A stretch of DNA of 64,000 nucleotides from Bryum argenteum (lineage: Eukaryota; Streptophyta; Bryopsida; Bryales; Bryaceae), in assembly GCA_037043015.1 (NCBI GenBank), contig CM073326.1, positions 18,236,345-18,300,344 of the forward strand, given 5' to 3'. Shown here one piece after another: positions 15,272 through 52,260 of this stretch. Position numbers and translations under genes: made by a program. The notes beneath the pieces are model-generated. The model was not told where the DNA came from. It saw nothing but the letters and a program-made list of their open reading frames with translations, and did not search any database. The stretch's first letter is position 1, and every line of letters starts with the position of its first letter.

Positions 15272-15276
15272 GCTTT

Positions 15277-25800: not shown

Positions 25801-26445
25801 AGCGGGGAATCGTCTTTGACTGGAGCCCTAGTACAGGTTTGTTGTAGCTAATACCAACTCTCATTCAACTTATTCAATATTGTATTCTGATGTTGGTTGC
25901 TGGTATGTAGGTGCTTCCGTGATTGCGTGCGCGCGATTGAACCGTCATCTCATTGCTGTTGAAGCTGATGAAGAGATATTTGACGGACTTTTATCGGCAT
26001 ACGTCAATGCCTCAATGGTACCGCTTTTGAGGAAAAAAGCGGCGATTCGGTTCCAGTTTATGACTACGACAGTGACACTTCTGAACCGCTTCAGAAGAAG
26101 CAACGCCCAACATTTTGTGTGTACTTATCTATTACTTTCCCTCCTTCTCCTGTGACCTTCACTTGCTATGAAATTATTGGTATTGACTTTTTCTGCACTT
26201 TTAGGATCGCAGGTTCTAATCGACGCTTGATTGGCGACGGAAGTCTCTACAGCAGTCCTCCGCAAACCTTCACCCTACCATCTTATGCGGAGCGGATAGC
26301 TCAGGAATTTGTTGCTGCCCCTTCTCCCCTCTTATCGGACACTAGTAGACGTCGACGCTTTAGCTCGAGAGTGCTTGCGTTTATAGACGATGAGGCTGAT
26401 CAGTGTGACCAACACTTTAATGGTCGTTCACCATCAGCATCTTAG
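22846..26445 (+). pseudogene. Element A ParB-methyltransferase-like gene, 3' part (rest of exon 3 to exon 12)
   Basis: This continues the gene cut at 4850. Exons: 22846-22958, 23053-23248, 23333-23530, 23623-23841, 23924-24159, 24266-25040, 25139-25486, 25566-25836, 25911-26116, 26213-26445, all with GT-AG borders at the same places as in B and D. Exons 4-10 are open. The methyltransferase-like part shows HIYADVPENLPVPDV at the DPPY position and DWSPSTGASVIACAR at the FxGxG position. Exon 11 is 8 bases longer than in B (extra bases after GCATACGT), which shifts the frame near the end of the protein. Apart from that and the 18-kb insertion the gene looks recently functional. The helical exons 5-7 (VRRSVHFP, FLHRASLWA) match no domain I know. 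Confidence 0.7.
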
Positions 26446-27290
26446 GTGTTTTTATTTTCCTGGTTTGGTTTGGACTACGTTGGGTCATATAGTTGCCCTA
26501 CGGCATTGGTCTTACATGTGGTTTTATTATACGTTTTTATATCTATATATGACGTTTACCTATTAATCATGAACGTTTAATGTATTCTTAATTACTATCT
26601 AATTGTTTAAGTTTTAAACTCAATGCAAACTAAAAGTTTCAGAATGTTTCTTTATTTTCAATTGGAGTGATTGAGTCTAGCCAATGTTGGTAGCGGCTCT
26701 GATTCAGTATTTGTATAGCTGAGGATAGCTGCTTTACGACGCACTGCAACGCTCAAACGAGCCCGAGGAGAATCGAACTCGGACCACTACAATGCCACGT
26801 GAATGTCTTGCTGTACACCTTACAAGGAGACACGGAAAGACAACTTGTAGTTATAAACTTCAGATTATATATCACGAATCATTTACATATAATTCTCACA
26901 AGTGTTATATTGATGACGTCAGCCCTAATTCTAATCTAAATTTTAAAATCATTAAAGTGATTTTATGGTTGTCCTAATGGGCCCTCCCAAATTTTGGTTA
27001 AAGTTCTGTATTTCTGAGTGAATTAGGCCAATATATGATTTGAATTGTATGGGTTACACATGATGATGTCAACCCTAATTTAATTAACTCTTATATAAAC
27101 TTGCAAATGTGGATAATTTATGAAATTTTGTATAACCTCAATAACATGAAAATAAATGGATAAAGGACCTATATCCATGGTTTTGGGTACTTTTATGCCT
27201 AATAATAACCATTTCAAACTTTCAAAACCCCCCATTCCATGGTAATAGGGCCATTAACTTTTAATTTTTTTTTCTTACCGCTCAAACTTT
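26446..27290. other. 3' region of element A
   Basis: Closely similar to 21944-22790, with TGACGTCA at 26914-26921 and the tRNA-promoter-like motif near 26750-26800 (minus). No gene is seen. Confidence 0.4.
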
Positions 27291-27328
27291 ACCGCTCACC
27301 GCTCAACGCTCACACCGGTGGTTTCCCC
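27291..27328 (+). repeat. Right terminal inverted repeat of element A
   Basis: The sequence ends CTCACACCGGTGGTTTCCCC, as in element B. The ten bases after it, GTCATTAGTC, would be the target-site duplication; the partner lies outside the window. Confidence 0.75.
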
Positions 27329-27492: not shown

Positions 27493-28245
27493 TCATGTCA
27501 AAAGTCCAAACCACATCGAATTGAAGAATGAATTCTCGTTGATTGTATACTTAACCAACCCTAGATCCTCCCAGTAAACCAAGAAATAGGGTTTCTCATG
27601 TACCTCCTCTAATTCTTCAGCACTTGTCTCAAATCCATCCTTTTCATCATCTTGTGTTTCCAGACGATAAGAGGCTTCTGCTTTTCCGCCCGTATCTGTG
27701 ACTCTTTTCTCCTCAAACATTGTTGCTTCATCCTCTGATCGCTCATCTTCCTCTTCCGATCCTCTGCGACGCTGAAGACAACACATGGTAATCTTGATTA
27801 ATATATGTATCCAGAAATAGTTTGACCTTTACGAATATTCAAATAGTTGTAAAATAATCTGATTCATTACCTCATGTGTAGAGTCCACACCTCCATTGTC
27901 ATCCCCTTCCACGAAATCAAACTCGCTAGACGTCCTGAAATGCCTTGTACTCCCTTCTTCCTCCTCTGCTTCAGCTTCGTCAGTCCCGACACTCTCGGGA
28001 ACATTGTCGAGGTTGAGCGATCGCATCTTAATAGTCCGCCTAAACGGCGGTAGCACATCGTCGTCGATTAGAATATCATACCCGTCCAGCTCCCGATCAT
28101 CGCCGCTAGAGCTTCTCCCATCGCGCTTCCGCAAAGCACTACGCCTCAGTGCTTTAGAATTTGTGAACTTTGTACCTCCCCTCCGCTTCTTCTTTTTCTA
28201 ACCTATGTCCTTTCCTCTCTCACTACCGCTAGCGGTTTCGTCCAT
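27493..28245 (-). pseudogene. ORF2 copy in element C (acidic protein), with early stop
   Basis: Exons 28245-27872 and 27771-27493 match ORF2 of element B in start (MDETASGSERGK), central module (DDDVLPPFRRTIKMRS) and C-terminal module (KPYFLVYWEDLGLVKYT). The intron has the same position. A stop replaces Gln at about codon 15 (TAG at 28201-28199), and the last few residues differ from element B. The gene is inverted relative to element B because element C lies on the other strand. Element A inserted just downstream of it, so the ParB-methyltransferase-like gene of element C is not visible here. Confidence 0.65.
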
Positions 28246-28775
28246 GCTGCTTGTTTGAAGATAACTTATCACACATTCTACCGAACGAGTCCAGGAGTTC
28301 TCACTGCAAATGAAGAGGTTGGACTACGGTTTTCAACTCCATTATATGAGATCCCACATGCGGCTAAGAAACCCTAATCAGCCAACGCATATTTCCTAAC
28401 ATCCCGCTATGACCGTGTCTGACAATCCATAATAAGTTATCTTTTAAACGTATCTAAAATCCAACGCATCTAATTATCTGACAATGACTGCCGCCGTCAC
28501 TTTACCTTCTACACCTACTTATTTTATCGAGGGATCTAATATTATTAATCCAAACCACTTAATGCAATTATGTCAGTCCAAATATTTTAAGTATTATAAG
28601 TAACGTGCTTTCAAATTATCATGCTCAAGATTAAGAGTATCACGTATCTGTACGATTTTTTAATCTGAAATTACGTCTAGTAGGTATTCAATACGTACAC
28701 AAAAAGCCTACACCAATTCTTTGTATTTGAACATTTGAAACGCACCTCAGACTCTCTTTCTCTGCGCACTTGTTG
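28246..28775. promoter_or_regulatory. Divergent ORF2/transposase intergenic region of element C
   Basis: Same layout as 9170-9694 in element B, with conserved stretches on both sides such as AACCCTAATCAGCCAACGC. A TATA-like CATATAAT lies on the minus strand near 28340-28350. Confidence 0.35.
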
Positions 28776-29742
28776 ATGTTGTCTTCCTCGCCTGCGTCTA
28801 TCATGGCATCCTCCGCTCCCTACCTCCCGCTCCAAACGTCATTGCCATTAGGTCTGAAGACTTAAGTCCTCCCATATGCATTCCTCCAGGGGTGGATGGA
28901 GTGGCTGAAGTCAGTCCGTCTTGGCTTGCAATTCGTTTTGGGTTTGATGAGTCCTCTCTTTGGTTAGAGAAACATGTCTTCAATCCAAACACTAATCTTG
29001 TGCAGTACTCTGTGCTTGTCGAACCAGTCGACCTAGACAGTAATTGTAGAATGTATAAGCTACAGCCCGGACAGTATCGACTGTTCGGCATGACAGAGTC
29101 TGTCATGAACGCCTCCACCGTGCTCCTCACTCCTCGTAGTTCTTCTACCATCTCCACTGTTGTTCCAGTTCTTGCTCGTGTCAAGGTCGAACCCGGACTC
29201 GAAGTCCGAATCGCTATTTCTGATTCATCCGACGATGAAAGAAAAGCGTCCATGCAGTCCCCTCGACTATCATCGAATCTGCATCCCCCCTCTTCTGGTT
29301 CTGAACACAGTCTCAGAACCACCCCCTACTCTCTTCCCGCGTCCAAAGTCGTAAAACCCAAAAACATTCTTTCCTCGCTCCGTAGACTAGGTAGTATGTC
29401 TCGCAACAAAACTATACTCAAAAAAATGGATTTCCATTCCATTCGTACTCACAGCGTCTCTTTCCTGCCCCCCACTTTCAATGGTGATGTCCTCTACATT
29501 CTCCCTCCCGTTCTACCAACTACTACTGTCAAGGTAGCCAAATCTATGGAAGGGATGGACAAAAGATACGATGGTCATGTGTGGACCAGGACAATGACCA
29601 CTAACATCAGTAACAACCTCGGTTTGTCATTCCGCTACTCTAACAGTGTAGATCATCTTCAATGCCACAATGAGAACTGCGGCTTCTTGCTACGACCTGA
29701 CCGCAGAGCACAAGTCAATGAGGTGGAGTTCGAGGGCTTTAC
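28776..29742 (+). pseudogene. N-terminal part of the MULE-like transposase in element C, truncated
   Basis: From about 28892 the reading matches the N-terminal half of the element B transposase, through the first Cys cluster (HLQCHNENCGFLLRP) to EVEFEGFT. One base is missing within the first 15 codons after ATG GCATCC (28803), so the natural start is out of frame. The gene is cut at 29743 by an LTR that begins TGTTAAGG. The catalytic core and SWIM finger are not in the window. This copy shows that transposase and ORF2 are divergent neighbours in more than one element. Confidence 0.65.
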
Positions 29743-30335
29743 TGTTAAGGGGGTTTTTCTAGAACCACACCTTAACGAGTCTAAGTTAGCTTCCTACTAG
29801 TCGCAGTAACGTTGGGTCACCAAAACTACGACTAGCAGGAAGAGAAAAGGGTTGAATCTACCGACTAGTGAGCATCTATTGGACCAGACAGCTTTAGGTC
29901 GGGTCTGCTAAACACTAGAAAGAGAGAAAATACACGATTCTCACAAACAAATCAGAGATCCTGCAAACAAGGGTCGGCTAGTCTATTCAAACACACACAA
30001 CGAAAGAACAGAATAGAAGACTATGCAGAGCTCTGAGGTTACTGGCAAAGAGGGATAGATTAACTAGCAACAACCCTCACGGAGAAGAGGGTGGTACATA
30101 TAGTCGGCTGGGTCTGACTGACTGTCAGATCCAGCTGAGAACAATAGGTCAGCCGACCAGTCTGCCAGGTCGGCCAGAAAGGTCGGGTGTCCAAAATGAG
30201 TCTAAGACTCTAAAAACAACAACTAAAGATCCGACCTGCTCATCCTACCGGGTATCGCCTGCTGGGTCTATACCTGCCGGGTAGAGACTAGACTAAAAAT
30301 AGCCTAGCGAATATACTACGAATATTCCGTTAACA
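29743..30335 (-). mobile_element. LTR of a TRIM-like element (X), minus orientation
   Basis: The 593-bp unit starts TGTTAAGG and ends CCGTTAACA, and contains GGTCGGGT-type words like the TRIM LTRs. To its right the minus strand reads AAAGGGGGGCAA, a polypurine tract, so this is the 3' LTR of a minus-oriented element. Its interior is seen only to about 30373, where gypsy2 has inserted. Confidence 0.6.
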
Positions 30336-33373: not shown

Positions 33374-34427
33374 TGGGCAAGAAGAAGACCATTGAGGGTG
33401 ATGAGCCTGGAGCTTCCAAGCGGCCACGCACGAGGGGGAACAAAGACCCCGATCCTACAAGTGAGGCTCATTCTCATGACTCCAATGAGCAAGCCGCCAC
33501 TAGTGAGGGCAATGAGCAAATGGAATTGTCACTTCAAGAGGAGCCCTTAGGTGAAGAGTAGCGCTCTAGGTCGAGACGCCTAGAGTCTTCCCAAGGGGTG
33601 GAAAGACAAGATCCTCAATTGGCTTTTCAAATGAGAATGCTTGAGTTCATGGACTCCGTGAATCAAGAGCTCAAGCGTGGGAAGGAAGAAAGGGATCGCC
33701 AAGAGAGGTTGATTGAACACCTCATGATGCAAGGGTCCCGACCTTCATCTTCCACCAAAAAGTTGGCTAAGGTAAACATGCCAAGCACCTTCTCGGGACT
33801 TGGTAAGGCAAGGAAGGTGAAGGAATTCCTTCTTGAGATGGATAACTACTATGATGTCCAAAAGCCGGATGAGGAGGACAAGGTTTCCATTGCGGTGACA
33901 TTTCTCAAGGATCATGCTCTTCAATGGTGGACAAGCAAAAAGGAGCAAGAGCCGGAGTTGGTGGCAAACTTGACTTGGGGTGGCTTCAAAGACTTGTTGA
34001 GTGAACGCTTCACACCGTAGTATCGGGAGTTGAGGGAAGGCATGAACTTGGTGCAAATGAGGCACACGGGTCTCTCAAGGCCTATGTGCGTGACTTCAAT
34101 GCCCAAATGAATGCCACACCCAAGATGGATGAGTTCTCTAAGAAGTGCATCTTTTTGGGTGGGCTTCAAAAGTGGGTGGTGGATGCCTTGTTCAAGTTCC
34201 CAAAACTTCCCGAGGATGTGGCGGGCATCATCAAGATTGTTGAAAGGATTGAGGCTGATGGACCCGAGAGGAAGTCAAGTGGCCCCTCTCAACAAAGTGG
34301 ATCAAATAGGAATGCGGCTCGAGGCAAAGAGCGCAAGAAGTTTGGCTTTGGCAACAAACACAAGGGACAAGTGGATGGTGGAGCCTCTAACAAAAGGGAA
34401 CACCAAGGGGGAAAGCGGGGAATGTAG
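33374..34427 (+). pseudogene. gag of element Y, with internal stops
   Basis: Reading begins MGKKKTIEGDEPGASKR, passes a TAG at 33559-33561, continues through a Retrotrans_gag-type capsid (VNMPSTFSGLGKARKVKEF, DHALQWWTSKK, TWGGFKDLLSERF), meets a second TAG at 34018-34020, then a frame change, and continues as MNATPKMDEFSKKCIFL to a basic tail. The zinc knuckle that should follow is absent: element D begins here. With the Met-type primer site and this capsid it looks like a chromovirus-like or related Gypsy gag; the lineage is a guess. Confidence 0.65.
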
Positions 34428-34465
34428 AGGTGTGAGCGGTGAGCGGTGAGCGGTGAGCGGTGAGG
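34428..34465 (-). repeat. Terminal repeat of element D with GAGCGGT heptamers
   Basis: GGTGTGAGCGGTGAGCGG and further GAGCGGT units match the termini of elements A and B in the expected orientation relative to the gene. Confidence 0.7.
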
Positions 34466-35054: not shown

Positions 35055-38000
35055 CTACGCTGAAGGTGTCGTACCATTGAAGTGCAGGTCACACTCATCA
35101 GCCTCGAAGTCTATATACTTAAGCACACTACTATTATAACGTAGACGTGTAGTGTCAGACAAGATGGGAGATGGAGCTTCAACAAACTCTTGAGCAAGAC
35201 GCTCAGCGTAGGAGGGAAGAGTGAACGTCGATGGAGGGCTATTGTAGAGATGAGCGTTGCGAGTCAATCGCTCTTTCAGACCTGCGATGCTAAAAGTACA
35301 AAAAAAGTCAGTACAGTACATTTGTAAGAGCAGAATACGAATATTCATATGAAATTAGACTAAGTTACAACGCACCAATAAACTTCCGTGGCTTCTTCAC
35401 GGGCGGTTCGTCAGAGTCATAATCTGCAGGTGGGGCCGATTCTCCACTTTCTTCATCACCGGGAGGACCATTCTTGTAATCGGCTAGTACACCATCAAAG
35501 ATTTCTTCGTTAGGTTCCATGGCGATGAGGTGTCGGTTTGAGCGCGCGCAAGCAATTACGAGATGCACCTAAAAATCAAAAGCCACCTTAGAAATGCGAA
35601 ATGTATAAAGGATTTCTAAAAATGCGTTTACGGATACGGTACCTGTACTTGCGCTCCAGTCGAAGACTATACCTCCGTCGTCCGTGAGACAATCTACGAA
35701 ACATTGTATGAAGGACGGGTCCTTCTCTCTAGAGCCTCGCCATGGCGTACCGTCCGGACGAGTACGCAATGTGTCTTTGTCTGCAAAGTTCGAGAGGTGC
35801 TCTTCCTCATCCGGAATAATTGCTACACCCGCATATGCGTGTGCCACTTGCCGAGTGTGGAACTTCGACACATAATCTTTCCGAACATAAACTTTGATAT
35901 GGAAGCAGTGAGTCTGCAAAACACAAGTATAGACATATTAATATAGAAGCATAGTGGACATTAAACATAAACTTTGAGAATGGAAATTACAAACTGCTCC
36001 GTACCTCTTTTGGGTGCGGTACGGTAGAGGCCATTGGGAGTGGATTATATCCCCACCAATCTCGAACAACACGAAAACCATATGTATGGGATTCGGAGTC
36101 GAGAGTACGCTCGATTCTGCGACATTTGGGATGCATCAGAAGAATCGCTCCAACGTCTGTCAAGTGGTATGCGGCAAAGATAAAAAGGCTCTCAAAGTAG
36201 TTTTTATCGCGCCGGTTCCAGGAAGGAACTTCTGTTGGAGACACACCCGGTACTGGCAAGTTCTCGGGAGCGTCTGCAAAAATGAGATCAATCCCAGGAT
36301 GCTTGGGATCATACTCCATCGCCGAACACGGGTACTTTCGGTCTTTTCCAATCTGAAATACAAGGCAATAATTAGATAGTGGCATATATATTGAGAAGTA
36401 CAAAACGTAAATATGAAGATTATAAATGACCAATGTATGAAAGAATACCTTCTTGATGTGCTCAATGATATCGAGGATTTGCAAATCCCATTTTGCAGTC
36501 TTCGACGATTGATGAACCAAATCTCCAATGTTGCCCTTCTCGAGATACATAGGCAGAGTGACTGTAATTTTCGACGACGAGCTGCTACCAATGTGATTGG
36601 GTTTCGGAAGAGGGCGTTTGGCGAATTTTGGCTGACTGAGACGGCGAGGCGACCGCGGGGAGTTGTGGTCAACGGTAAAGGACACGGGAGGGGATCCCGC
36701 ATTCGTGAGTCCACCCCCGGAAACCTGAGTCAGTCGTGCACCACGTCGAACGACATTGACTGTCGCACCATGTGAAGTTTGAGTGAGATCAGGTTCCAGG
36801 GGACCTTCCAGTTGGAGAGGAGCAATGTCTCCGGAATGTTGTTGAACATCTTCCATAGGGTCTGCACCAGCGTTGCGTCGCTTCTTCTTTCCTCGAGCTT
36901 TAGGCAGTGCAGCCGGGGACGGTGGTGGAGAAGTTGAGACAGGTGCGGTTGGTAGAATCGAGACGTCGTCGTCCTCATCATCATCGATCTCCATGGGTGC
37001 ATCGTCAGCTCCTAGTGAACCGAGGTTTCGAACCAGTTCTTTCTCCTCCTTGTGCACGAAGTTAGCCTGACACTCAAGGAACCAACCCCCTGTCTGCAAC
37101 TGTGCGTTAGTGAACTGCCTTTGTTGGGATTCGGAGAAGAAGCTCGAGGGATCGTTTGTGACTGCAACGTCTTCTAACTCCAAAGGAATAGACCATGAAG
37201 CTAAAGCTCCCTTAGCAACAAGCTCTTGCTTCAAGTACCTACAATCAGAAGAGCAAATTAGAACACTGCATAAGAATTAGAATTGCATAAGTGAAACCAA
37301 AGTTGTTAGTAGAGAATAGGTAGCGTATGGCACATACCGGAATAACAATCGTTTGATCGTGACTTTACCACCGGCAATCTTATGAATATCAGTGCCTTTG
37401 ATGAATTTTGGAGTGGCATTTTGATCGAGGTAGTTGGCGAATGCCTTCTCCCAGTACAGCAACCTCCACTTCTCGACATATGCAGATGGCTTGAGGACGG
37501 CGTCTGACCACTGAATGTTGAGATTCTCTTTCTGAGTGAGCTTCTCTAATTCACTTTCAAGAGATTTCTCCAACTGCACATGCATAAAACACGTTGGGAA
37601 ATGAATTACTGACATTGCAAGAGTAAGGTGAACACAGAAGTAAGAACCAAAATACCTGTGCCCATAGAGAAGCACGATGGAGAAATGCCATCAAACTTTT
37701 GTCCTTTATTGGACGGTCTTCCGGGAAGTGAACTGATCGACGAACATCGTTTGATGAGTTCCACCACTGCAACCACTTTGCCTTGAAATCGAAGTGAACA
37801 TTGGTAGTTGCTACCATGTGCAAGCGATCGATGGTCATATCCGGTTTAAGGTTTTTGCTGTAGTGTGCATAAATCTGCACAGAACACGGATTTGATACAG
37901 AATTTAGAAACGTAAAGCAATAATATGGAGGCACAAAAGGAACCTTTAACAGATGACATACACACCTCTTTCGGGAATTGTCTCCCAAGATTGTAATTCG

Positions 38001-41000
38001 CCACTGCAACCATCTTGTCAAAGTTTTTGCCACGGATTGCCTTGATTTCAGCTTTAATGGCATTATCCATGGCACTCCATACTCCAGGCCCCGACTGCTT
38101 CTCTTTTGGGACAGAGGCATAGTAAGCAGTCTCGGCATCGTCCGATGCTTTGGCTAACCTCCTCTACAGAAGAGAACCCAAAGATAAGAAGATGTGAAAA
38201 ATTAGACATTTTGTACAAGAGACAAGCACGTGATTATAGAACTTACCGAGTATAAGAACTTAACGAAGACGTCTAGGGTGACTGGGTACCAGGTTTCTTT
38301 CTTGGCCTTGGCGTTCTTGCAGATTCTGTAGTCCTCTGGACTTATGAGATCTTTGAAATCATGGAGTTTGAGCTTACCAAATTTTCTCATGCGTTGAAGT
38401 TTAGCACAAAGGCCGTCTTCAACATGGTCGTGTTGATGAGACCTACGGATCAGAATCAGGAATTAGAGAAGTTGAAGGGAGATAAATTATCGAAAGAATT
38501 CCAGTTTAAGAATAAGAATTCTTCTTACCAGTTTATGTCATTCATGACGTCGAGGAGCAAGCTGCTCTCTCCGCGAGCATCGAGGATGATACAGTCGACC
38601 GAAATATGCCACGCAGCATCCAGCTTATGGTACCTTTCGATGTGCCGCATCCACGCCGTAACTCGATGGTTACCCTCGTAAACATAGAAGTATTTGCCGA
38701 TAAGATGATGAAGGTCCGGATCCGAGCGCAATGTCTTGTCGAACTCGTCATTTGCCTCTCTCCATAGCGTATCCGTAAAGACATCATCTTCGGCATCAAC
38801 TTCTTTTTCTCTCCCTTTCCTATCGAAAGGAGAAACGTACATGACCCGGTCGCCCTCTCGGTAGCCTTTGTTGAACTCATTCTCCAACTTCCGGACGTCT
38901 TGTTCCGAAATTGGTCGAACCTTGGGATAGCAAACAAGGCGACACAATGGAATCATCATACGAGATTTCTTGACAGGTTTGAAACGTAACCTGTTGATGA
39001 TTGCGATGGAATCACTCTTGTGAATCATTCGCATTTCGTTTGCACTCCAGTCAGGATCTTTGTTTTGGAGGTGAGGGGGCATGTGGACAATCCCAACGTT
39101 AACGCTTCCCGGCAATGCAGGTTCATCATTGTCGGATATAGAATCCCGCTCACCATCAGCATCGACAGTTTGAGGTGGATGGGCAGCTTCCGACGGACTT
39201 TCAGGAGGAACCTCATCGCTCGATCGTACTAGCGGATGTTGTTGAGGAAACACCTCGCCCTCACCACTGATATTATCATTGTCATTGGTAAGAGGAAGCT
39301 GAACATCCTCATCTACTTCGACTGGAGAAGCGGGTGATAATCTTATCTGTGAAGGAAAAAACCAAATACAACAACGGAAGTACAAAATAAGAAAATGTCT
39401 AAATCAAAATGAAACATGGATATAATCATAAAAGTGAAATATGATAAAGTTAATAAATAAGTATCATATAATGAGGTCAATATTCTATTTAGACTTGCAC
39501 TTTGCTGCGAGTCGAGGTGAACGTCGAGGAGCAACTCTAGCCAACGCCTTGACTGCGAGACGACGTGCTTTTGCTTGTGCATAATAATTACGCATGTAAC
39601 TAGCTCGTGCCACCCGATCAACATCAACATGTAAAGTGTGACGGACAGGAGAAGCAGGAGGAGGTGTTACGGGCACAGACGACAATGCTACAGCCAAACG
39701 ACGTGACTCAACTACTTTCTGCACATGGACTCTAAGCTGTGATAAGTCGCTGTCAGCGTCAGAATCTTCATCCTCCATAACGGGAACTTTCTTCGGACAC
39801 TTAGAAGCCCCCTGCAATCCCACGAACCAAAATTTAGAAAATACCAATATAAACAAGCATAATTCAAACAACCAGCAACAAGAACACATTAGAAGACCGG
39901 TATTTAGAACACATACTTCCTTCAACATAATCATGCATTTATCCGCATTGTTAAGTCTAGACATTGGTTCTAACATAGTTTATTCTACAACGCAATAATC
40001 GACCATGCCAGCACCAATCAGATAAGATAAAGGACGGACAAAACGACAAGGGATTGTCATCAACACGGAAGCCCCCTCCTCGGCATTCATAACAGCTTAG
40101 ACCTGCAGGGACCATCGAGAATGAGCTCCGAGGCTCAGCATTGCAATCATCAAGATCAGTAGCGCCACGCGTAGCAGGGCAGCACACGCAGGACATCGAC
40201 ATCCCCTCCCGAATACAGGGTCATCCAGGATCAGATGGGCATGGGGAGGATTTCAAAAAAACAAGAAACCGCGCATCCGACCATCCGGGGTCAGCCCTGC
40301 GTCCACGCAGGGCTGGCCCTCCCCGGAGCATACGCAACGAACATCAACACGAAAGCCCCCATCACGGCAGTCACGCAACCCAGGACCAGATGAGCACGGG
40401 AGGATTAAAGAACAGCGATCAGATGAGCACGGGAGGATTAAAGAAAAAAAAAGAACCAAGCATCCGACCCTCCAGGGTCAGCCTTGCGTCCACGCAAGGC
40501 TGGCCCTCCCCGGAGCGATCTCACCAAACATGAGCGAAAATGCCCCCCCCGAGTGCAGTCAAGGCAGCGAGGGAGCGTGAGACCACCGACAAGGAGCACA
40601 GAGGCTCGTCCCTGCAAGCATCCAGTGCCAAAGCGGCACGCGTAGCGGGACACCTCACGCACCACATCCACATCCCCTCCACAAAACAAAGAACAACAGG
40701 CTCGGATGAGCATGGAAGGATTTCAAAACAAAAAGAAAACAAGATTCCGATCCTCCGGGGTGACCTTGCGTCCACGCAAAGGCTGGCCCTCCGAGCGATC
40801 TCACCAAACATGAGCGAAAATGCCCCCCCCCCGTGCGGTCAAGGCGGCGAGGAGCGTGAGACCACCGACAAGGAGCACAGAGGCTCGTCCAGCCGCAAGC
40901 ATCCAGCCAAAGCGGCACGCGTAGCGGACACCTCACGCACCACATCCACATCCCCTCCACAAAACAAAGAACAACAGGCTCGAGATGAGCATGGAAGGAT

Positions 41001-42378
41001 TTCAAAAACGGAAAGAAAACAAGATTCCGATCCTCCGGGGTCAGCCTTGCGTCCACGCAAGGCTGGCCCTCCCCGGAGCGATCTCACCAAACATGAGCGA
41101 AAATGCCCCCCCGAGTGCAGTCAAGGCAGCGAGGGAGCGTGAGACCACCGACAAGGAGCACAGAGGCTCGTCCAGGCTGCAAGCATCCAGTGCCAAAGCG
41201 GCACGCGTAGCGGGACACCTCACGCACCACATCCACATCCCCTCCACAAAACAGCAACAACAGGGCTCAGATGAGCATGGAAGGATTTCAAAAACGAAAA
41301 GAAAACAAGATTCCGATCCTCCGGGGTCAGCCTTGCGTCCACGCAAGGCTGGCCCTCCCCGGAGCGATCTCACCAAACATGAGCAAAATGCCCCCCGAGT
41401 GCAGTCAAGGCAGCCAGGGAGCGTAAGACCACCGACAAGGAGCACAGAGGCTCGTCCCTGCAAGCATCCAGTGCCAAAGCGGCATGCAATGCACGGCACC
41501 TCCCTCCAGGACATCGACATCCCCTCCACAGAACACGATCAACACCAATCACATGAGCATGGGGAGGAAACAGCCATCAACACGAAAGCCCCCTCGAGTG
41601 CAGTCATAACAATCAGGACCAGACAGGACAATCCAGAATGAGCACCGCTGCACATCCGGTTCATCGAACCTTCCAAGCATGAAGTCAACCTGCCCCCCCC
41701 CCTCGGAGAATCCCGAGTAAACATCAAAACATAAGCCCACTGGAGAGCAGTCAAGGCAGCCAGGCAGAGCAGGACCATGGAGAATGAGTTCTATGCTCAT
41801 CCTTGCAAGCATCCAATTCAGTACTGGCACGCATTGCGGGACACCCCGCTCCAGGACATCGACATCCCCTCCACAAAACAGGATCAACCGGGATCTCATG
41901 AGCCGGGGCCATGCCGAGGATTTCAACAAGTTTAGCAACCAAAAATCCGGACACTCCGAGGTTAGTCTACCCCCAGCATTCACAGCAAACATCAACACGA
42001 AAGCCCCCTCCAAGCCACTCATGGCAGCCAGGACCATCAGGGACCACAGCATCCAGTACACGACACCTCGTTGGGAGCATCGGAGGACACCTCGCAGCAG
42101 GCAGCGGAGGACAGTGGAGGACACGTCGCTGCCGCAGGAAAATGTAATCAACTGAAGAAGAGCATCAGGAGGAGCGCAACACACACCTTAAATTCGCTTG
42201 AGGACCAATTGTCCAGCTCCGCACGCAGTTTCAACGCTTCTTCAACAGCACTACGTCGAATTTCATAGAATTCTTTCCAAACTCTCGATTCAGAACTAGT
42301 ACTCACATTCTCCAAAGTTGTTTCAATGTTCTCCTCGTCGCTTCGCACTCCCTCCTCCTCCTCGATTCCGTTCGCCAT
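35055..42378 (-). CDS. Element D ParB-like/DNA-methyltransferase-like gene, 12 exons, nearly intact
   Basis: Exons (minus): 42378-42187, 39811-39485 (stop after SPRLAAK), 39346-38529, 38442-38247, 38163-37966, 37874-37656, 37573-37338, 37238-36449, 36352-36005, 35913-35643, 35568-35376, 35281-35055. Exons 3-12 would give about 1,165 residues. Exon 3: acidic start, conserved NVGIVHMPPHLQNKDPDW, then ParB-like fold with VRPISEQDVRKLENEF and YVYEGNHRVTAWMRH. Exons 4-7: alpha-helical, unknown. Exon 8: acidic/basic low complexity with KKKRRN. Exons 9-11: methyltransferase-like, IDLIFADAPENLP (DPPY place), WWGYNPLPMAS, GGIVFDWSASTG. No stop codon interrupts exons 3-10; one extra base at the start of exon 11 (about 35560) shifts the frame inside the FxGxG-like motif. 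Exon 3 begins ATA, not ATG, so it must be spliced to upstream coding sequence. Confidence 0.7.
39830..42186 (-). repeat. Intron 1 of element D gene, minisatellite-rich
   Basis: About 40240-41560 holds tandem units of roughly 230-290 bp. Most contain the near-perfect palindrome CAGCCTTGCGTCCACG-CAAGGCTG (near 40292, 40472, 40765, 41042 and 41330) followed by GCCCTCCCCGGAGCG. Diverged units continue to about 42120. The palindrome core matches that in intron 1 of element B, though the rest of the unit does not. ORFs here are repeat artefacts. Confidence 0.65.
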
Positions 42379-43666: not shown

Positions 43667-44449
43667 TGTTACCCGATGACGTCAGTCGGGTAACCACGGC
43701 GGCCCATGCGGGAGCAGCAGCGGCAACAGGGATAGCGCAGCATTTTCGGCGGAGGCACCAACAGTTAGCTGCAGATGCCTCGGCAGTCGATTGCGGCACC
43801 GTTCGGTGCCAGGGCTATCCACGGCAGCCGTAGTATAAAAGGCAGTGAAAAATAGGAGAGAGGACTCGTTTTTTTGGTAGTCACCGTAGAAGCATAGTTC
43901 GATGTACGCTGAGTAGACACACACTCATATGTATTTTGATCGGATGTTTGGAATATGAAGGCCAAGAGCCATGACTTTTCTCTCCCATGTCGTATGCACG
44001 GAATCTCTTTCTCTTCCTCTCATCTATCCGGTCCGCTATCGAGGATGGCAATAGTCACCTTGAATAAACCCTAATATTCCTCTTGGGTTGTATACGTCTA
44101 TCCTCGATTCTGTTGTGTCTCCGCGGTTTTTCTCGCTTGCATTTCTTTGGGTCTCGAGACAGAGCGATCGGCCTCGGTAGGAGTCCCGTACCTGAGCCTC
44201 GGACTTACATTCCCAAGCTACAGGATACCGGGCCGACACCCTCTTTCCTCCTCGGTATCCGTGGTCACCTTGGCCTCAGTCCTCTCAGGACCTTAGGCCG
44301 GTATCACCAAAGTCAACTCTTCCTCTCCCTGGCCGAAACTGGTCAGGGTCTAGACTTCCGATCAGTATCTAAACAACTCACCCAAAAACGATATCTTCGG
44401 TGCCTTGAGCTCGTAAAGCATTCCATCCCCTCGATAACCCAGGACAACA
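43667..44449 (+). repeat. 5' LTR of gypsy1
   Basis: It starts TGTTACCCGATGACGTCAG and ends CCAGGACAACA. The first 29 bases form an inverted repeat (GTTACCCGA/TCGGGTAAC) around TGACGTCA at 43677-43684, a bZIP/CRE-type site. GTAGTATAAAAGGCAG gives the TATA box near 43832. The matching 3' LTR is at 52302. Confidence 0.85.
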
Positions 44450-44469
44450 TTTTGGCGACCATGCTGGGG
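44450..44469 (+). other. Primer-binding-site-like sequence of gypsy1
   Basis: TTTTGGCGACCATGCTGGGG directly follows the LTR. It is identical to that of gypsy2, and its first 13 bases match the one used by TRIM1 (TTTGGCGACCATG). Confidence 0.6.
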
Positions 44470-44523
44470 ATGGAATGTTGAGTCAGACCGAAGAATAAGA
44501 AAAAAGACACCGAACAGGGCAAC

Positions 44524-47500
44524 ATGCCTCCTCGAAAAGCAACCGAGAAAAATGCGGAACCTGAAGAGGCCGCACCCCAAGATGACCAAGATACCACAAG
44601 AGAATTGCTCCACTGGATGAAACAACAAATGACAGACTTGGCGGCTAAAAACGACGCCACCAATGCAAAGATAGAATTACTAAACGCACACTATCTCCAA
44701 GGGGTGGGAACCTCAACAACTGTTCCCCCCATGGTTACCTTGGCCGGACCATCACAGCTCCCACCGATGGATCCAGCCATGGCCGCTTCTATGGCGTCTA
44801 GAGAAAGAGATAGGCTCATCAAGTTGCCAAAGATACCGTACCCAGTCTTTGATGACTCCGGCGACCCTGACTGGCACATACGTCGATTTAAGGTGATAGC
44901 GCGGACCAACGGTGTCACCAGCACCGAAGACTTGCAGAATATCTTTGGAACCACGCTCCAAGGCACCCACATCAATTGGTACATAGATTTCGAAACCGAG
45001 CATTTGTTACCAACATGGGATGAAATGGAGCGTAGCTTCTTACAAAAATTCCGAAAACTAAAAACGAGCTCAGAAATACTTCGAGCTTTAGGAAACATAC
45101 AGCAAGAAAGAAGCGAACCCGTGGACAAGTTTTATGACAGATTCAAGCAGCTGGCCGACAAACTCAGTCGACGGCCTGAGGAAGACTACTTATGCGAATG
45201 GTTCAAAAAGGGCCTGCTACCGTGGATACAACAAGGCATCATTATCCGCGGTGTTAAAACATTGCAGGACATACTCACCGCCGCCAACGATATCAGCAGG
45301 GAATTCAGCGTCATCGACAGAACACCGACACCGTTGCTTCCACTGCCAACACCAAGGATACCTGTTCGGGCGACAACATCACCATGTACTACTTGCGGTA
45401 AACTACATGCAGGACGCTGTTGGTTTTCCAACACACCCACTAAAGCAGAAGATATCCGGCCCACGCGAACTAAGACAGCATCCATGTACCCAGAAGAAGT
45501 TGATGTGGACGCGTTCCAACCTGGCAGAAACGATGGATGCTGGGAATGCGGATCCCCGCACCACCGACGAGGCCAGTGCCCGGTGTTGAAACAACGCTGG
45601 GCCAACACACGGGCTACCGCGGAAACCCATGCACAGTCCGGCAGCACCGAAGCCAATACAGGCAACAGAAGAGGGGGAGTTACACTTACTGAAGTCCACG
45701 GCACTAACGTGGCTACCATAAGCACCGCCGCGGTAACCACAAGATCAAAAGCTACCTTGGATACCGCTGATAAACATGTCATAGAACACCGCAAGCCTTT
45801 CGCAGAACGGCATTGGGAAAGGTTAAACAATCTGCGGACGCAAATTCAAACCGACCTGGAAACAGCGGTAGTCCCAGACCTGCAACGGGTATTGGAAAAA
45901 ACCGATGTACGCATTACGTTGACTGATCTGTTGAAGATTAGCCCGGAATTGCAAACATACCTGCAAAATATGCACAAAATCACAACCGCAGCCACGACAA
46001 CCGTAGAGATTAATGCGACAACCATAGACACCGATGCCGCTGTCATACATGTCCGATTAGGACATCACCAATTGGCCAATGTGTTAGTTGATGGAGGCTC
46101 CGGAGTCAATGTTATTAGCAATCACCTACGACAACAGCTAGGACTGCCACACCCAACCACAGCCCAGTTCGTCTTAAGGATGGCAAATGATGCTCCGGTG
46201 ACTCCATTGGGGATACTGTCCACCGTAGCCATCACTACTCACGGAATCTCTACACCGGCAACCTTTGTTGTCATTGACATGCCGGATAGTAGCAATTTCC
46301 CTATGATTTTGGGCCGACCTTGGTTAAGAGACATGAATGCAATCCATGATTGGGCAAGAAATCAAATCAGAATCCGAAGATACGGAAAGACCATGATTAT
46401 TCCCGTGGACAGCTGCATCACTAGAGAAAAAGTCAAACAAATTAGGAATCAAGCTGGTACAGCCTGGGGGCGAGGTCTTACGCAAGAGCAAGAAGCCTTG
46501 GTGTTCCACGCCGACCCAAATCTGATCCCACTAGCGGAGATTCACTTGGCCAGCGTAGTCTCAGAAGAAGATACCCTCGATATTCCCCACAGGTTCACCA
46601 CCGAGGTTTCCGAAAAAATCCTCATTGATAAAACCTCGGCAACTGAAGCTTTAAGTAAAAAAGTGGTAACCGGGTGGACAAATGGTTCCACAGAACAGGT
46701 ACAATTGGTCAACCTCGGCACCGAAAACGAACCAAAGCATGTCAAAATCAACGCAGACGCACCGCACGATATCAAACAGGCAACCATAGCCCTTTTCAAA
46801 GAATACCACGATATTTTTGCCTGGACGCACGAAGACTTGAAAGGGATACCAAGGACAATAGCAGAACACACTATCGATCTGGTACCAAATGCTCACCCAG
46901 TACAACAACGCAGGTACCGCATGAATCCAAACTACGCAGCCAGAGTCAAAGCAGAACTGGACAAACTGCTCGATGCCAAGTTCATATCACCGGTAGACTC
47001 GGCACCATGGCTGTCCCCGATGGTCATCATTCCTAAAAAGAATGGCGCCCTGCGAATCTGTGTGGATTTTCGTAAACTCAATGCGGCAACCAAAAAGGAT
47101 CACTATCCTCTACCTTACATGGAAGAAATCATCGACGAAGTAGCAGGACATGAGATGTACTCATTTCTAGATTGTTTTTCCGGATATTATCAAGTCGCCA
47201 TGGCAGAACAAGACAAGAGCAAAACCGCGTTTTCCACGGAGTGGGGTCCTTACCAATTCGAAAGAATGCCGTTTGGAGCAAAAAACGCACCCATGACATT
47301 TCAACGTGTCATGGAGTTGATTTTTCGCCCTTACTTGAAGAAATTTTTCCGCATATACCTAGATGACGGCACAGTGTACGGTCGTATGCAAGACCATGTT
47401 AGCCAATTAAGACAAATCTTTCAAGCATGCAGGGAAAACGGAGTAAGCCTAAATGCTGACAAATGCATGTTTTTATTCTTCGCAGGACTCATCTTGGGTT

Positions 47501-48792
47501 ATATTGTTTGCAAATATGGCAAACTTCCCGACCCCTCCAAGATCCAAGATATCCTGGACATGACTCCACCGAAAGATCAAAAAGGCGTCCAGAGATTGCT
47601 TGGCATCTCACAGTTCAACCGAATGTATATTGAAAAGCTAGCACACCTGACGGCACCGATAGCTGCCTTAAACCGTGCCGGGTATTCCTACCCCCGAGAC
47701 TGGACCCCGGCAGCCCAGACAGCGTTGGATAAAATAAAGCAAGCATATTCACAGGCGCCAATACTATTGGCACCTAATTGGGACAAACCGTTCCACGTCC
47801 ATACAGATGCCTCCAAGATCGCCGTGGGGGTTATGTTGGCACAAAATGTCAACGGCAAACACGATCAACCGGTGGCCTACGCTAGCAGGTTGCTAAACCA
47901 AGCAGAACGAAATTATTCAACCACGGAGAGAGAGGCCTTAGCGATGGTCTACGCAGTCAAGAAATTCCGACATTACTTGTTGGGAAACAAGTTCAGATTC
48001 ATGGTGGATCATCATAGTCTGTCTTACTTGGTGAACCAACCATTGATCACCGGAAGAGTCGCTCGGTGGATCATGATTCTCATGGAATATGACTTCGAAG
48101 TGGTCTTTGTGCCAGGAAAACGCCACATCGTGGCAGATTATCTTTCCCGAGACACCAATGCTACCGAAGAAGGCATAGACGACTCGTTTAATGAGCCATA
48201 TATACAAGCTGCGTTAGTGCAGACCACCATGGATACCGCGGAAACTTCAGTCGACTACAGACAGGACATCATGGCTTACTTGGATCAAGGAATCATACCC
48301 AATGGACTAACAGGCAGCCAAAAAATCAACTTCGTTAGAACCACGCTACCATACACCGTGGTTGACGGCAGATTATACCGAAAAGGCGCAGATTTAGAAG
48401 TTAGGCTCTGTGTACCCACCGGAGACCAACAACAGATCCTCGAGAGCCTCCACGCAGGCCCCGCTGGCGGACATCAGGGACCAGATACCACAGTTCAGAA
48501 AATACTGGCTGCCAAATATTGGTGGCCAACGTTACATAAGGATGTCCTCGCATACATTAAACAGTGTCACGTATGCCAAACAGCAACCACAAACTTTCAG
48601 CATCAAGGCAAAGTACCGCTCAAATCAATACCACCGTTGGGACCTTTTCAACGATGGGGGCTTGATTTTGTCGGACCAATTAAACCAGCCTCAAAGCAAG
48701 GATACAAGTATATTTTGGTAGCCACGGATTACACTACCAAATGGGTAGAGGCCAAACCAGCACAAGCAAAGAATACCGCAATGGTAATGTGA
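44524..48792 (+). pseudogene. gypsy1 gag-pol polyprotein (gag, protease, RT, RNase H, N-terminal integrase)
   Basis: One open frame of 1,422 codons begins [13 protein letters not shown]. Gag capsid-type helices lie at about residues 90-260, followed by two zinc-knuckle-like motifs ([26 protein letters not shown]). The aspartic protease site is [13 protein letters not shown]. Reverse transcriptase runs about residues 800-1050 with [10 protein letters not shown] as the catalytic YxDD box. RNase H starts at [14 protein letters not shown] and ends near DYLSRD. The integrase begins with the H-H-C-C finger ([17 protein letters not shown]) and the first core Asp (WGLDFVGPI). It stops at 48792 just after the core starts, by a frameshift; the rest lies in other frames to 49194. 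Everything up to the integrase core looks functional, but integration would need another element. Confidence 0.85.
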
Positions 48793-49194
48793 CCACTTTC
48801 CTCTATGAAAACATAATTACTCGCTTTGGATGTCCCTTGAAATCGTCTCCGATCAAGGTACCCATTTTTGTCAACGTTGATCATCGAAGACCTCATGGAC
48901 AACCATATCATCAAACACAGGACAAGTACGGTCTATTATCCTCAAGGAAATGGACAGGCAGAATCCACCAACAAGACCATTTTAAACATGCTACGCAAAT
49001 TTGTATTGGCAAACCAAGGTGACTGGGATGACTGTCTCTCCCTTGTATTTGTGGGCCTCTGTGGTGGCCACAAAAGCGACCACCAAGATCTGACCCCTTC
49101 GAGTTAGTTTACGGAGACACCATTTGTTGCCGGTGAATACATTGTACCAACATTCCAATCCGTACAACCACGAGACTATCAGCCTCACCGCGTC
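48793..49194 (+). pseudogene. Frameshifted integrase core of gypsy1
   Basis: Pieces of the integrase core can be read in three frames: [17 protein letters not shown], then MDNHIIKHRTSTVYYPQGNG and AESTNKTILNMLRK, which carry the last catalytic Glu region, then a degraded stretch to 49194. At least three frame changes are needed between 48785 and 49195. The integrase C-terminal domain is again open from 49195. Confidence 0.75.
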
Positions 49195-52100
49195 TTGGCA
49201 GCCCGTGTACAGGACTTACACAGGCTCGAGGAATTCCGTGGAGAGGCCAGGCTTAATATACTACGGAGACAAGCACTAAGCGCAAGGTATTTTCAGGGCA
49301 CAAAACCTCCTCGCATATTCCAAAAAGGAGATCGGGTACTATGGTGTCCAAGAGACCCAAAAATTAGAAAATCCAAATTAGGGACAATCTGGCACGGGCC
49401 CTATAGGGTACAATTAGCATTGCCAAACAATACAGTTCTTTTGGTTAACAATGACAACTATGATAGCCAGGCCACCATTGTTAACGCAGCAAAATTAAAA
49501 AGTTATCATTCCAACACCCCGAACCAACAGCCAACGGTGAGCTTGGGTCAACTACAAAATTTACTGGCCACGGAAGCCAAGGGGCAAAAATCGCAGCAGG
49601 ACATCGAGGACCCCGAGGAGGCCAAAGACACCGCAGATAACACAGTTACCCAAGGGGCAAACCTGCCTATTATTTATTTAAATCATGTCCAAGTCGTCTT
49701 TTTGGACACCCAAAAAATCTCATGCGGTAATCATCACATAGACACCGAGGATATTGATGCCCAAGGAAGAGACCTTCTCGAGGGGCCTACGCTACATCAC
49801 AGGTACCTTCACAGGCCATCAACCGCCGCCGAAATGGCCTTTGGCCGATTGGCACTGACAGTCTTAACTCCCACTCAGCCGCCTTTCCCTCCCACTACCG
49901 CGGTAACCGAGGACAACAAAAGGCCGTTGGAGTCTCTCTGTCCTCATTTGCGGCCTCACACAGCGCCTCTCTGTCTCACAGCTCGAGCTCTCTCGCCGCG
50001 CCATTGCTTTTCTTCCTTGCAGATTGCGCCACCCATTCCACACACACGGTGTTTTTCCACGGTTTCCATGGCTTCTCGTAATTTGACTCCGCAGAAACCG
50101 AAGCCAGAGGCGCCCTTCTTCATGCCGAGGCACCTCCTCGATTGGCGTAGCAGGATCGATAGTGTGTGGACGCAAAACACAGGGCTTCACCGATTTTGGG
50201 AGGACATGAAAACATGGAAGCTCAATGTTAACCACTGTAGGCAATTCGTGGAGACTATGAAGCCTCAGAGCTGTGGAGGAACTTACCCAACCGGTACCGT
50301 GGATGGCGTGGAAGTTCACTTCTCTGCAGCCTATCTCTACCACCAGTACGGGTGGGACGGCACCGGCATCACACAATGGACAGAAGACTGCAGTTTCCAA
50401 AGGCCAGACATCGCACAGAGGATACCGGGGTTGGAGCCAAGGGAGAAGGGCTACGATACGTACGCAGTTGGAGCAATGTTGAAGGAGCCGTGGTTTGCGC
50501 GCATTCGCGGCATCATCAGCCAAATTTACTGCCGGTGCAACTGCAACTATGTGTTGCCCGCACAGTTAGAGCTTCTGTTTATCGCCGATGCAGGAGCTAA
50601 GGTGAACTGGGGCATGCTTTTCGAGGATCACCTGCGGCTTGAATTGCAAAACCATCAGAGATTCAGCGATTATTCTAGTCCCATCGGGCCGTTTCTATCC
50701 ACCTACATCATGCGCTATCTACAGTATAACAAGATGAATGGGAAATTGCCACCGATGGCAACCTTCGTGGAGATTCAACGTCGGAAGCTGCCTTCACCGA
50801 TGAAGCCTATCAGGGACTCCGCGGCACCACCCACACACAAGAGGCAGCGAACAGATGACGAGGGACCCTCCACCGAAGCAGGGCACACACTGGCAGACCA
50901 ACTCGAAGCCCAAGCGTCCGCCATGGCAACCTGTGTAGACAAAGTGCTGCGGCACTTACAAGTCACCGAAGGACAACAGCGGCAACTGCGGGAGGAGAAG
51001 GACCGACACTCCAAAGCTACACAAGACCTGCACACACGATTGCGCAAGAAGGAGGAGGAGTTAGGTCAAGCCATTCAAAAGATGGATGAGGCTAACCGCG
51101 CTGCCCAGACCTTACAGAGCCAGCTCGCGGCCAAACAGATTGACATACAATCGATAACATTTCAGCTGGAAGGAGTGACTAAGGAGAGGGACGGTGCCAA
51201 GGAGCAGTTGATGTCCCTGATATCACAGAATGAGGAGTTGCGGCAACAATGCCGGAATTTGATCGACACCAACCCATCGAATCCGGAGGCACAGAGTTTG
51301 GAGGAGCGGCGCAGAGCGTTGGTGATCGAGGAGGAGAATTTCGAAGCAAACAAGCAAGCCTGGGTCCACGATGCCGCAGCAGTTTTGGGAGAAATATTGT
51401 TCAGGGCAATCCAGCGGGACCCTCCGCAGACAGACGATATCGCAGTTAACATGGTGGCCGCCTGCATCGAGGAGACACTCACCAAATTGCAGTTAAATGC
51501 AGACTACGAGGGAGAATGGCAAGAGTCCAGCCACGATGAAACCAATATGCCCACGGAGGCCGCGGTCATCGAGCACCAAAGGTCTCCACAGCAGATCACC
51601 GAGGCACCGGACTTCCCCGAAATCGTGGCACAGGACGACATCACAGGCACCGAGCTGGAAGGTCAGGAGACTCGGGAGGTAGACATGCCAGAGGAACAGT
51701 TGCAGGATCGCGTGCACATCCCGGAACACCTTACCGACACCGAACAGACACCCCAGGCATCACCGAGGGCAGCAGAGGAAAAGAACTCCTCACCAGCACA
51801 CCCACCGACATCCTCAACGACATCCACGGCTCAACCATCGACTCCGGTAACTCCTAAAATGTCATTTGCAACTCATCGACAGGCTTTGATACAGCTATCC
51901 GATGATAACACGTGGCATGTGGAACCTGAGAATGACAGCGATGCCGATGAGGAGTACCAGGATGCACACGATGAAGTTCAAAAATACTTCAACAAACACC
52001 CCGATTTGGCTCAACGTTTCGCGGATCACACCGCTAGTGATGTTCAATGTCCCGGTTGTAACAAAATGTTGGGCAAAACCGTCTTTGATGTCCATGAACA

Positions 52101-52260
52101 TGCTAACACAATCCGCAATCGACGCTTACTGCACAGGGGCATTGCCGCGGCCATCAGAGCGTTATACGATGACCAACCTCCACCTCGCCGACAACAGCAG
52201 CGGCCTCGTGAGCAGACTCGTCCCGACCGGCGCCCTGCAGAGCGACGTGCCAAGCACTGA
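49195..52260 (+). CDS. gypsy1 3' ORF: integrase C-terminus followed by extra helical/coiled-coil/zinc-like protein
   Basis: The frame is open for 1,021 codons. The first ~110 residues are the integrase C-terminal (GPY/F-type) domain (GTIWHGPYRVQLALPNNTV). After a linker, an independent protein probably starts at the ATG at 50068 (MASRNLTPQKPKPEAPFF). It has a helical domain (LLDWRSRIDSVW; WGMLFEDHLRLEL; SPIGPFLSTYIMRYL) like the 'putative plant transposon protein' region found in plant Gypsy elements, then a long coiled coil (about 50970-51260), an acidic tail, and a C-terminal C-x2-C...H-x-H motif (CPGCNKMLGKTVFDVHEHA). Position is that of an env-like ORF3, but I see no signal peptide or membrane segment. 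A similar domain plan appears in the minus-strand ORF at 55330-57162. Role unknown. Confidence 0.65.
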   Translation: MAARVQDLHRLEEFRGEARLNILRRQALSARYFQGTKPPRIFQKGDRVLWCPRDPKIRKSKLGTIWHGPYRVQLALPNNTVLLVNNDNYDSQATIVNAAKLKSYHSNTPNQQPTVSLGQLQNLLATEAKGQKSQQDIEDPEEAKDTADNTVTQGANLPIIYLNHVQVVFLDTQKISCGNHHIDTEDIDAQGRDLLEGPTLHHRYLHRPSTAAEMAFGRLALTVLTPTQPPFPPTTAVTEDNKRPLESLCPHLRPHTAPLCLTARALSPRHCFSSLQIAPPIPHTRCFSTVSMASRNLTPQKPKPEAPFFMPRHLLDWRSRIDSVWTQNTGLHRFWEDMKTWKLNVNHCRQFVETMKPQSCGGTYPTGTVDGVEVHFSAAYLYHQYGWDGTGITQWTEDCSFQRPDIAQRIPGLEPREKGYDTYAVGAMLKEPWFARIRGIISQIYCRCNCNYVLPAQLELLFIADAGAKVNWGMLFEDHLRLELQNHQRFSDYSSPIGPFLSTYIMRYLQYNKMNGKLPPMATFVEIQRRKLPSPMKPIRDSAAPPTHKRQRTDDEGPSTEAGHTLADQLEAQASAMATCVDKVLRHLQVTEGQQRQLREEKDRHSKATQDLHTRLRKKEEELGQAIQKMDEANRAAQTLQSQLAAKQIDIQSITFQLEGVTKERDGAKEQLMSLISQNEELRQQCRNLIDTNPSNPEAQSLEERRRALVIEEENFEANKQAWVHDAAAVLGEILFRAIQRDPPQTDDIAVNMVAACIEETLTKLQLNADYEGEWQESSHDETNMPTEAAVIEHQRSPQQITEAPDFPEIVAQDDITGTELEGQETREVDMPEEQLQDRVHIPEHLTDTEQTPQASPRAAEEKNSSPAHPPTSSTTSTAQPSTPVTPKMSFATHRQALIQLSDDNTWHVEPENDSDADEEYQDAHDEVQKYFNKHPDLAQRFADHTASDVQCPGCNKMLGKTVFDVHEHANTIRNRRLLHRGIAAAIRALYDDQPPPRRQQQRPREQTRPDRRPAERRAKH

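Follow-up and report, generated by a model that had tools for sequence, protein, structure and literature searches.

A methyltransferase-related gene with a possibly ParB-like N-terminal region resides in a DNA transposon lineage of the moss Bryum argenteum

A 64,000-nucleotide stretch of the Bryum argenteum genome (GenBank assembly GCA_037043015.1, contig CM073326.1, positions 18,236,345 to 18,300,344; hereafter the window) contains a multi-exon gene, D, that raises an unusual question. An initial annotation described it as a transposon-borne fusion of a ParB/sulfiredoxin-like domain with a DNA methyltransferase-like domain. Does such a gene belong to a mobile element, what do its two halves resemble, and what could it do for its carrier? 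We show here that the gene is a resident component of a lineage of ~18-kb DNA transposons, bounded by terminal inverted repeats (TIRs) and target-site duplications (TSDs), that is present in hundreds of copies and in which the gene usually lies divergent to the transposase gene.

The window holds copies A, B, and C of the gene besides D, and copy B lies within a complete element. Element B spans 4851-22835 (17,985 bp), carries TIRs, has GG..CC ends, and is flanked by a perfect 10-bp TSD, GATGCGTCAT. Its parts, together with those of the older copy that it appears to interrupt, are as follows, with the basis of each assignment in parentheses.

4851-22835, plus strand: complete transposon copy B, inserted in exon 3 of the older copy A/C (termini and TSD read)
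4841-4850, no strand: left TSD, GATGCGTCAT (read from sequence)
22836-22845, no strand: right TSD, GATGCGTCAT (read from sequence)
4861-4912, plus strand: left TIR, with 7-bp tandem unit GTGAGCG (repeat reading)
22774-22826, minus strand: right TIR (repeat reading)
5369-9076, minus strand: transposase gene of B, frame split near 7580 (translated matches)
9695-10435, plus strand: small protein gene, the third gene of the element, in pieces 9695-10069 and 10169-10435 (translated matches)
11486-21934, plus strand: copy B of the putative ParB-like/methyltransferase gene, exons 1-12 (exon matches)
12597-16587, no strand: tandem-repeat arrays in intron 1 of copy B, including a palindromic GTCGGGTCGACCGGTAAAG unit (GTCGAC) (repeat reading)
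3700-4850, plus strand: left part of copy A/C, exons 2-3 up to the B insertion (exon matches)
22836-27328, plus strand: right part of copy A/C, from the end of exon 3 to exon 12, plus the right terminus (exon matches)

The B transposase comprises an N-terminal part with the D-D region (9076-7008) and a C-terminal part with a CxC..CxH motif (6781-5369); its frame break lies at 7577-7592. Exon 1 of the copy B gene is at 11486-11683 and exons 2-12 are at 17232-21934. In this copy, exon 3 is interrupted by a stop and the matches to exon 8 fall in two frames. The exon matches of copy C, from the end of exon 3 to exon 12, occupy 22825-26439. We interpret A and C as parts of a single older copy whose exon 3 was interrupted when B inserted.

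The association with a transposase recurs across the genome (258.8 Mb in 25 contigs). The exon-3 DNA motif occurs at 615 sites with at most two mismatches, as compared to 39 for the reversed pattern, and at least 336 matches to the methyltransferase exons were found (137 of 2117 candidates were scored); these counts place the gene family beyond chance. Among the matches listed, a transposase lies within 20 kb of 43 of the 106 B-like methyltransferase rows, and 37 of these pairs are divergent; random placement of this list gives a mean of 2.5 and a maximum of 9. For the D-like rows, again among the matches listed, 24 of 128 have a transposase within 15 kb, 19 of them divergent, with a random mean of 3.6 and maximum of 10. 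Two further elements from the genome share the gene order of element B, and the transposase is open over at least 691 codons in 15 of 29 other copies (one copy lay outside the string test). The proposal that the gene is transposon-borne thus holds for copy B, which has a 10-bp TSD, TIRs, and a linked transposase, but not in the same way for D, where 42378-35055 covers the gene only. The two lineages are also distributed differently. Contig C1 (44.1 of 258.8 Mb) holds 70 of the 128 D-like rows and 31 of the 106 B-like rows among the matches listed, which may reflect accumulation of the D-like lineage on a chromosome with little recombination, perhaps a sex chromosome.

In agreement with the proposed multi-exon eukaryotic gene, in silico splicing of D (42378-35055, minus strand) gave 12 exons with GT..AG borders and a single open frame of 1332 codons. 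In the list below, exons and intron follow this splice model, and any additional basis is given in parentheses.

42187-42378, minus strand: exon 1
39812-42186, minus strand: intron 1, with a 286-bp x 4 tandem array at 40411-41535 (repeat reading)
39501-39811, minus strand: exon 2
38529-39341, minus strand: exon 3, putative ParB-like region (PHROG match)
38651-38686, minus strand: YVYEGNHRVTAW motif (GNHR box) in exon 3 (motif reading)
38247-38442, minus strand: exon 4
37966-38163, minus strand: exon 5
37656-37874, minus strand: exon 6
37338-37573, minus strand: exon 7
36449-37238, minus strand: exon 8
36005-36352, minus strand: exon 9, first half of the methyltransferase region (profile alignment)
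36263-36274, minus strand: DAPE at the DPPY (motif IV) position in exon 9 (profile alignment)
35638-35913, minus strand: exon 10
35641-35676, minus strand: GGIVFDWSASTG at the motif I position in exon 10 (profile alignment)
35376-35568, minus strand: exon 11
35055-35281, minus strand: exon 12 and stop
34416-34464, plus strand: terminal repeat at the 3' end of the D element, with the same 7-bp unit as in B (repeat reading)

The peptides on which the initial annotation relied are present in D: SEQDVRKLEN and YVYEGNHRVTAW in exon 3; ADAPEN, GAILLMHP, and WWGYNPLP in exon 9; GGIVFDWSASTG in exon 10; and IACARSNRHLIAMEPNEEIF in exon 11. Three proteins of the moss Ceratodon purpureus, all hypothetical, are 50-53% identical over 73% of the searched region. 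One of them, P0001, spans mid-exon 5 to exon 12, and its joins match the D model by eye, which supports the exon 5-12 part of the model except for the exon 10/11 border. There, the donor was placed a few bases further on than the junction of the Ceratodon proteins. D is open only under this adopted model, because the Ceratodon-type junction is out of frame in D. The other two Ceratodon proteins lack pieces of exons 6 or 8. A more distant hypothetical protein, P0011 (JGI), has 29% identity over 69% of the query, with VVLDCKAATG at motif I and ADIPEN at motif IV, and may represent an early branch of the gene family.

The identity of the C-terminal part was examined by profile comparison. An eight-row profile aligned over 196 columns with 14 YhdJ-type enzymes (E. 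coli YhdJ and 13 phage genes), which we take to be beta-class (one is so named in its record), with an hhalign Prob of 95.4, an E value of 1.8e-8, and a score of 60.6. The best of 60 column shuffles scored 24.7, the reversed profile scored 16.1, and a single C5-methyltransferase control gave a Prob of 1.2. With HMMER, 8/8 rows exceeded the best of 2000 shuffles against the YhdJ-type set. The alignment places DAPE on DPPY and STG on the glycine motif, and the domain order is that of the beta class, with motif IV followed by the target region and then motif I. PHROGs DNA methyltransferase families match the Ceratodon homologue with E values of 2.5e-5 and 4.1e-5, and 5/19 rows match the top family. 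These data show, at the profile level, that the C-terminal part is related to beta-class amino-methyltransferases, and they bear out the methyltransferase-like assignment, including the position of motif IV ahead of motif I. Pfam PF01555 reaches E 0.055 (13.8 bits) with the D segment and E 0.0024 (18.3 bits) with P0001, both below the 26.7-bit cutoff. A Pfam scan of the whole 1332-residue D protein found no family at E<=1, and an NCBIfam scan of this protein gave no match. PDB sequence searches returned weak unrelated matches or none, the best being a dynein light chain (E 0.018), and hence no relevant match. Peptide-pattern scans of viral_contigs and genome_contigs returned 24, 35, 53, and 21 stretches, none of which tblastn confirmed as a viral or prokaryotic relative.

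The aromatic residue of motif IV and the glycines of motif I are required for ordinary amino methylation. Neither signature is seen in the readable rows. Motif IV, (D/N/S)PP(Y/F/W), is not matched in the 35 local rows, in which D is counted twice: 34 read D-x-P-E and one reads D-x-P-K. Motif IV is readable in 10 of 16 database relatives, all of which have D-x-P followed by E, S, or D, with no aromatic residue. Motif I F-x-G-x-G is found in 0 of the 28 local rows that are readable at this position, most of which have FDWSASTG; among the database proteins, 8/16 are readable, including P0011 with DCKAATG. The acidic residue after motif I is retained. Because motif IV lacks the aromatic residue and motif I lacks F-x-G-x-G, ordinary catalysis is doubtful and a pseudo-enzyme is likely. 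The domain is most likely degenerate at both catalytic signatures and would not perform the usual DNA methylation, which weakens the suggestion that the element could modify its own DNA.

The N-terminal region gives a more divided picture. The family phrog_1033, "ParB-like partition protein", matches D with an E value of 0.0036 over 40 residues and matches 17/55 rows, the best at 0.0021. This match is not decisive, because unrelated families reach E 0.0068 and 0.0074 in an NCBIfam scan of the same 55 rows, which returned no ParB family; a Pfam scan likewise returned none. The G, N, H, and R of the GNHR box are each at least 90% conserved in the 55 rows, and GNHR is in register with GHQR of phage ParB-methyltransferase fusions (hhalign Prob 4-5%, box assigned by eye). 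A first ParB profile comparison, with eight phage fusions, gave no match. In hhalign, the ParB comparison scored 20.7 untrimmed, with 0/60 shuffles above it (maximum 19.7), and 19.9 trimmed, with 1/60 above. From motif and context, the chances that this region is ParB-like appear evenly balanced. The proposed ParB/sulfiredoxin domain is suggested by the GxxR-type box and the weak phrog_1033 match, with HMMER scores not above shuffles and no ParB family matched in Pfam or NCBIfam.

The classification of the element as Mutator-like (a Mutator-like element, MULE) is plausible. As a rule, MULEs have a TSD of 8-11 bp (PMC6446971), and element B, as a single element, matches in its 10-bp TSD and in TIRs of ~50 bp built of 7-bp tandem units. 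By eye, the transposase has D-D-E-like motifs, with FDHV and MADS aspartates 66 residues apart and NLAESIHN in the C-terminal part, as well as a SWIM-like CSC..CKH, also in the C-terminal part. However, the MULE transposase family PF10551, which has 52 matches in the genome and none in the window, does not match this transposase at E<=1, and hhalign against one MULE of the genome scored 14.0 versus a maximum of 21.1 among 40 shuffles. The transposase of this lineage was recognized by no Pfam model in this analysis, and the element could represent either a remote MULE or a superfamily of its own. A candidate that was set aside is Lanisha, possibly a moss element, whose authors (Maumus, McDaniel, and Carey) we take to be Ceratodon workers. 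Lanisha is an EnSpm-like cut-and-paste superfamily within a group having TSDs of 2-5 bp and mostly CA..TG ends (as cited in PMC12730594). The 10-bp TSD and GG..CC ends of element B differ from this Lanisha/CMCT pattern.

Selection on the element genes was estimated by the Nei-Gojobori method as the ratio of nonsynonymous to synonymous divergence (dN/dS), for measured pairs only. In the methyltransferase gene, leaving out pairs saturated at synonymous sites, dN/dS is 0.04-0.13 for exon 3, 0.08-0.17 for exons 4-7, and 0.085-0.22 for exons 9-11, and rises to 0.2-0.36 for exon 8 and 0.25-0.37 for exon 12. The transposase gives 0.16-0.23 for its N-terminal part in near copies, 0.03-0.04 for its D-D region, 0.11-0.12 for B versus element E1, and 0.23-0.26 versus the decayed E2 copy; the small gene gives 0.26. 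Exons 3-7 and 9-11 are under purifying selection, like the transposase, which indicates that the gene is maintained as part of the element's own gene set. Recent activity, considered on the basis of 98% transposase protein identity, was ruled out by a synonymous divergence of ~0.23-0.29 between the compared copies. The nearest D-like copies have a synonymous divergence of ~0.04.

The maintenance of the gene by selection although its catalytic signature is gone suggests a role in element-specific recognition or protection. We consider it somewhat more probable than an even chance that the product is an element-encoded, probably non-catalytic DNA-recognition or anti-silencing factor derived from a methyltransferase. 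In our proposal, this protein, with its possibly ParB-like N-terminal domain, would act as an element-specific accessory factor that binds DNA and would either keep element copies accessible by counteracting silencing or help the transposase. Candidate binding sites are the 7-bp terminal repeats and the intron 1 tandem arrays, which are found in both B (palindromic GTCGAC unit) and D (286-bp x 4). The factor would thereby fill the role of VANC in VANDAL elements, built in this case from a bacterial/phage-type methyltransferase.

Several observations weigh against this proposal. Among the gene copies in the window, none is plainly intact, and the transposase and second terminus of D were not found within the 64-kb window. 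When the methyltransferase profile is compared with the ParB-fused phage enzymes, the alignment covers only 53 columns (Prob 67, score 38.7 versus a shuffle maximum of 29.2), and with HMMER 5/8 rows exceed the best of 2000 shuffles for this fusion set. In the HMMER test of the ParB-like region, 0/55 rows score above the best of 2000 shuffles, and 0/79 do so in the reverse direction. Several dN/dS pairs have a synonymous divergence >1, near saturation, making those ratios rough. Long intron 1 arrays are not universal, because in the 10-kb E1 stretch (L039) the arrays are short, with just 2-3 units. Finally, the altered motifs contain conserved residues, and the protein could therefore have changed its chemistry instead of losing catalytic activity.

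A related explanation is that the protein acts with the transposase at the termini, like maize mudrB or MutB, and has no epigenetic role. The recurrent pairing with a transposase and the 7-bp terminal repeat arrays are consistent with such a transposition accessory factor, and MULEs with additional open reading frames (ORFs) have been described (PMC6446971). For this job a protein derived from a methyltransferase would be an unusual choice, and we regard the explanation as unlikely, although the evidence presented here is compatible with it. We hold an equally low expectation of a more far-reaching version of our own proposal, in which the elements would form their own plant DNA transposon superfamily with a domesticated phage-type ParB-methyltransferase fusion as core accessory gene. 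Its ParB-like half would load or spread on element repeats, its degenerate methyltransferase half would read sequence or make an unusual modification, and this self-recognition would hide element DNA from host methylation. Still less likely is an active but altered DNA (or RNA) methyltransferase, through which the element would, in spite of D-x-P-E, place N6-methyladenine or N4-methylcytosine on its own DNA, thereby protecting or labeling it. The acidic residue after motif I, the domain order, and the purifying selection have all been kept, as such an enzyme would predict, but in the readable rows the second proline and the aromatic residue of motif IV are missing, as is the F-x-G-x-G of motif I, and these residues are generally known to matter for catalysis. 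A captured host gene, functionless for the element, is very improbable: MULEs do take up host gene fragments as Pack-MULE-like passengers (PMC6446971), but purifying selection between copies and the recurrent divergent layout disfavor this origin, and the protein searches, whose matches were judged without their genomic context, named no host orthologue.

Further traces of the lineage were noted. The right end of element E1 abuts exon 3 of another gene copy (stretch L040, ~3980-4010), and both readable junctions with a sibling gene, that of B in A/C and that of E1, fall in exon 3. Copies B and C (17232-26439) form a mosaic, with synonymous divergence dropping from ~1.1 in exons 4-7 to 0.14 in exons 9-11, a pattern suggestive of recombination or gene conversion between elements. 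At 27517-29743, the small gene and the N-terminal part of the transposase occur a second time in truncated form, each on the strand opposite to that of its counterpart in element B. The right edge of the window (62266-63999) carries arrays that are 96-99% identical (two 300-base stretches) to those of copy B intron 1 and probably belong to another element copy. D itself is adjoined by a retrotransposon. A nested long terminal repeat (LTR) retrotransposon spans 43667-52601, in which the 300-base stretches at 43667 and 52302 are identical and enclose a 1436-residue retroelement-like ORF at 44482-48792.

One way in which DNA-modification proteins enter eukaryotic chromatin is aboard transposons that carry them, and a plant element that preserves a methyltransferase-derived protein without its catalytic signature across divergent copies makes a pseudo-enzyme reader or anti-silencing role directly testable. 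DNA transposons with TET/JBP, SET, or VANC genes are already known (PMC12730594). Among the papers listed in a literature search, with Repbase Reports and most subscription papers outside its scope, no transposon, plant or other, with ParB-methyltransferase cargo was found, in line with the initial claim that no plant transposon with this cargo had been described.

The closest parallel in organization is VANDAL21/Hiun of Arabidopsis (VANA transposase, VANB, and anti-silencing VANC), likewise a three-gene plant DNA transposon with arrays in accessory-gene introns. VANC binds a short motif that has accumulated in tandem repeats, some of them located in the introns of VANC21 and VANB21, and causes methylation loss in the VANDAL element (PMC5735166). 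The D protein differs in lacking the VANC domains (DUF1985/DUF287), as it matches no Pfam family at E<=1, and in being methyltransferase-derived; its anti-silencing role is proposed by analogy. The fungal TET/JBP dioxygenase transposons (PMC12730594) are also DNA transposons, and their cargo gene likewise belongs to a DNA-modification family, but they involve another enzyme class and other hosts, with stated TSDs of 8 bp (Zisupton) and 2-5 bp (CMCT). DIRS1-type retroposons carry an N6-adenine methylase called catalytically inactive and are thus a precedent for a mobile element that retains a methylase domain described as inactive; they are retroelements with reverse transcriptase and tyrosine recombinase, and the available text mentions no ParB-like part (PMC3537659). 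Among bacterial and phage proteins, B. cereus Bce_0392 joins a ParB domain to an adenine methylase, and its ParB domain reportedly nicks DNA (PMC5512222). Streptococcus phage Javan113_0027 (418 residues) has an N-terminal ParB_N match with E 3e-5, just under the Pfam cutoff, and a C-terminal N6_N4_Mtase match with E 1.4e-28. It shares with the moss protein the order of GxxR box, motif IV, and motif I, but is without the ~500-residue middle part and retains both DPPY and FLGSGST.

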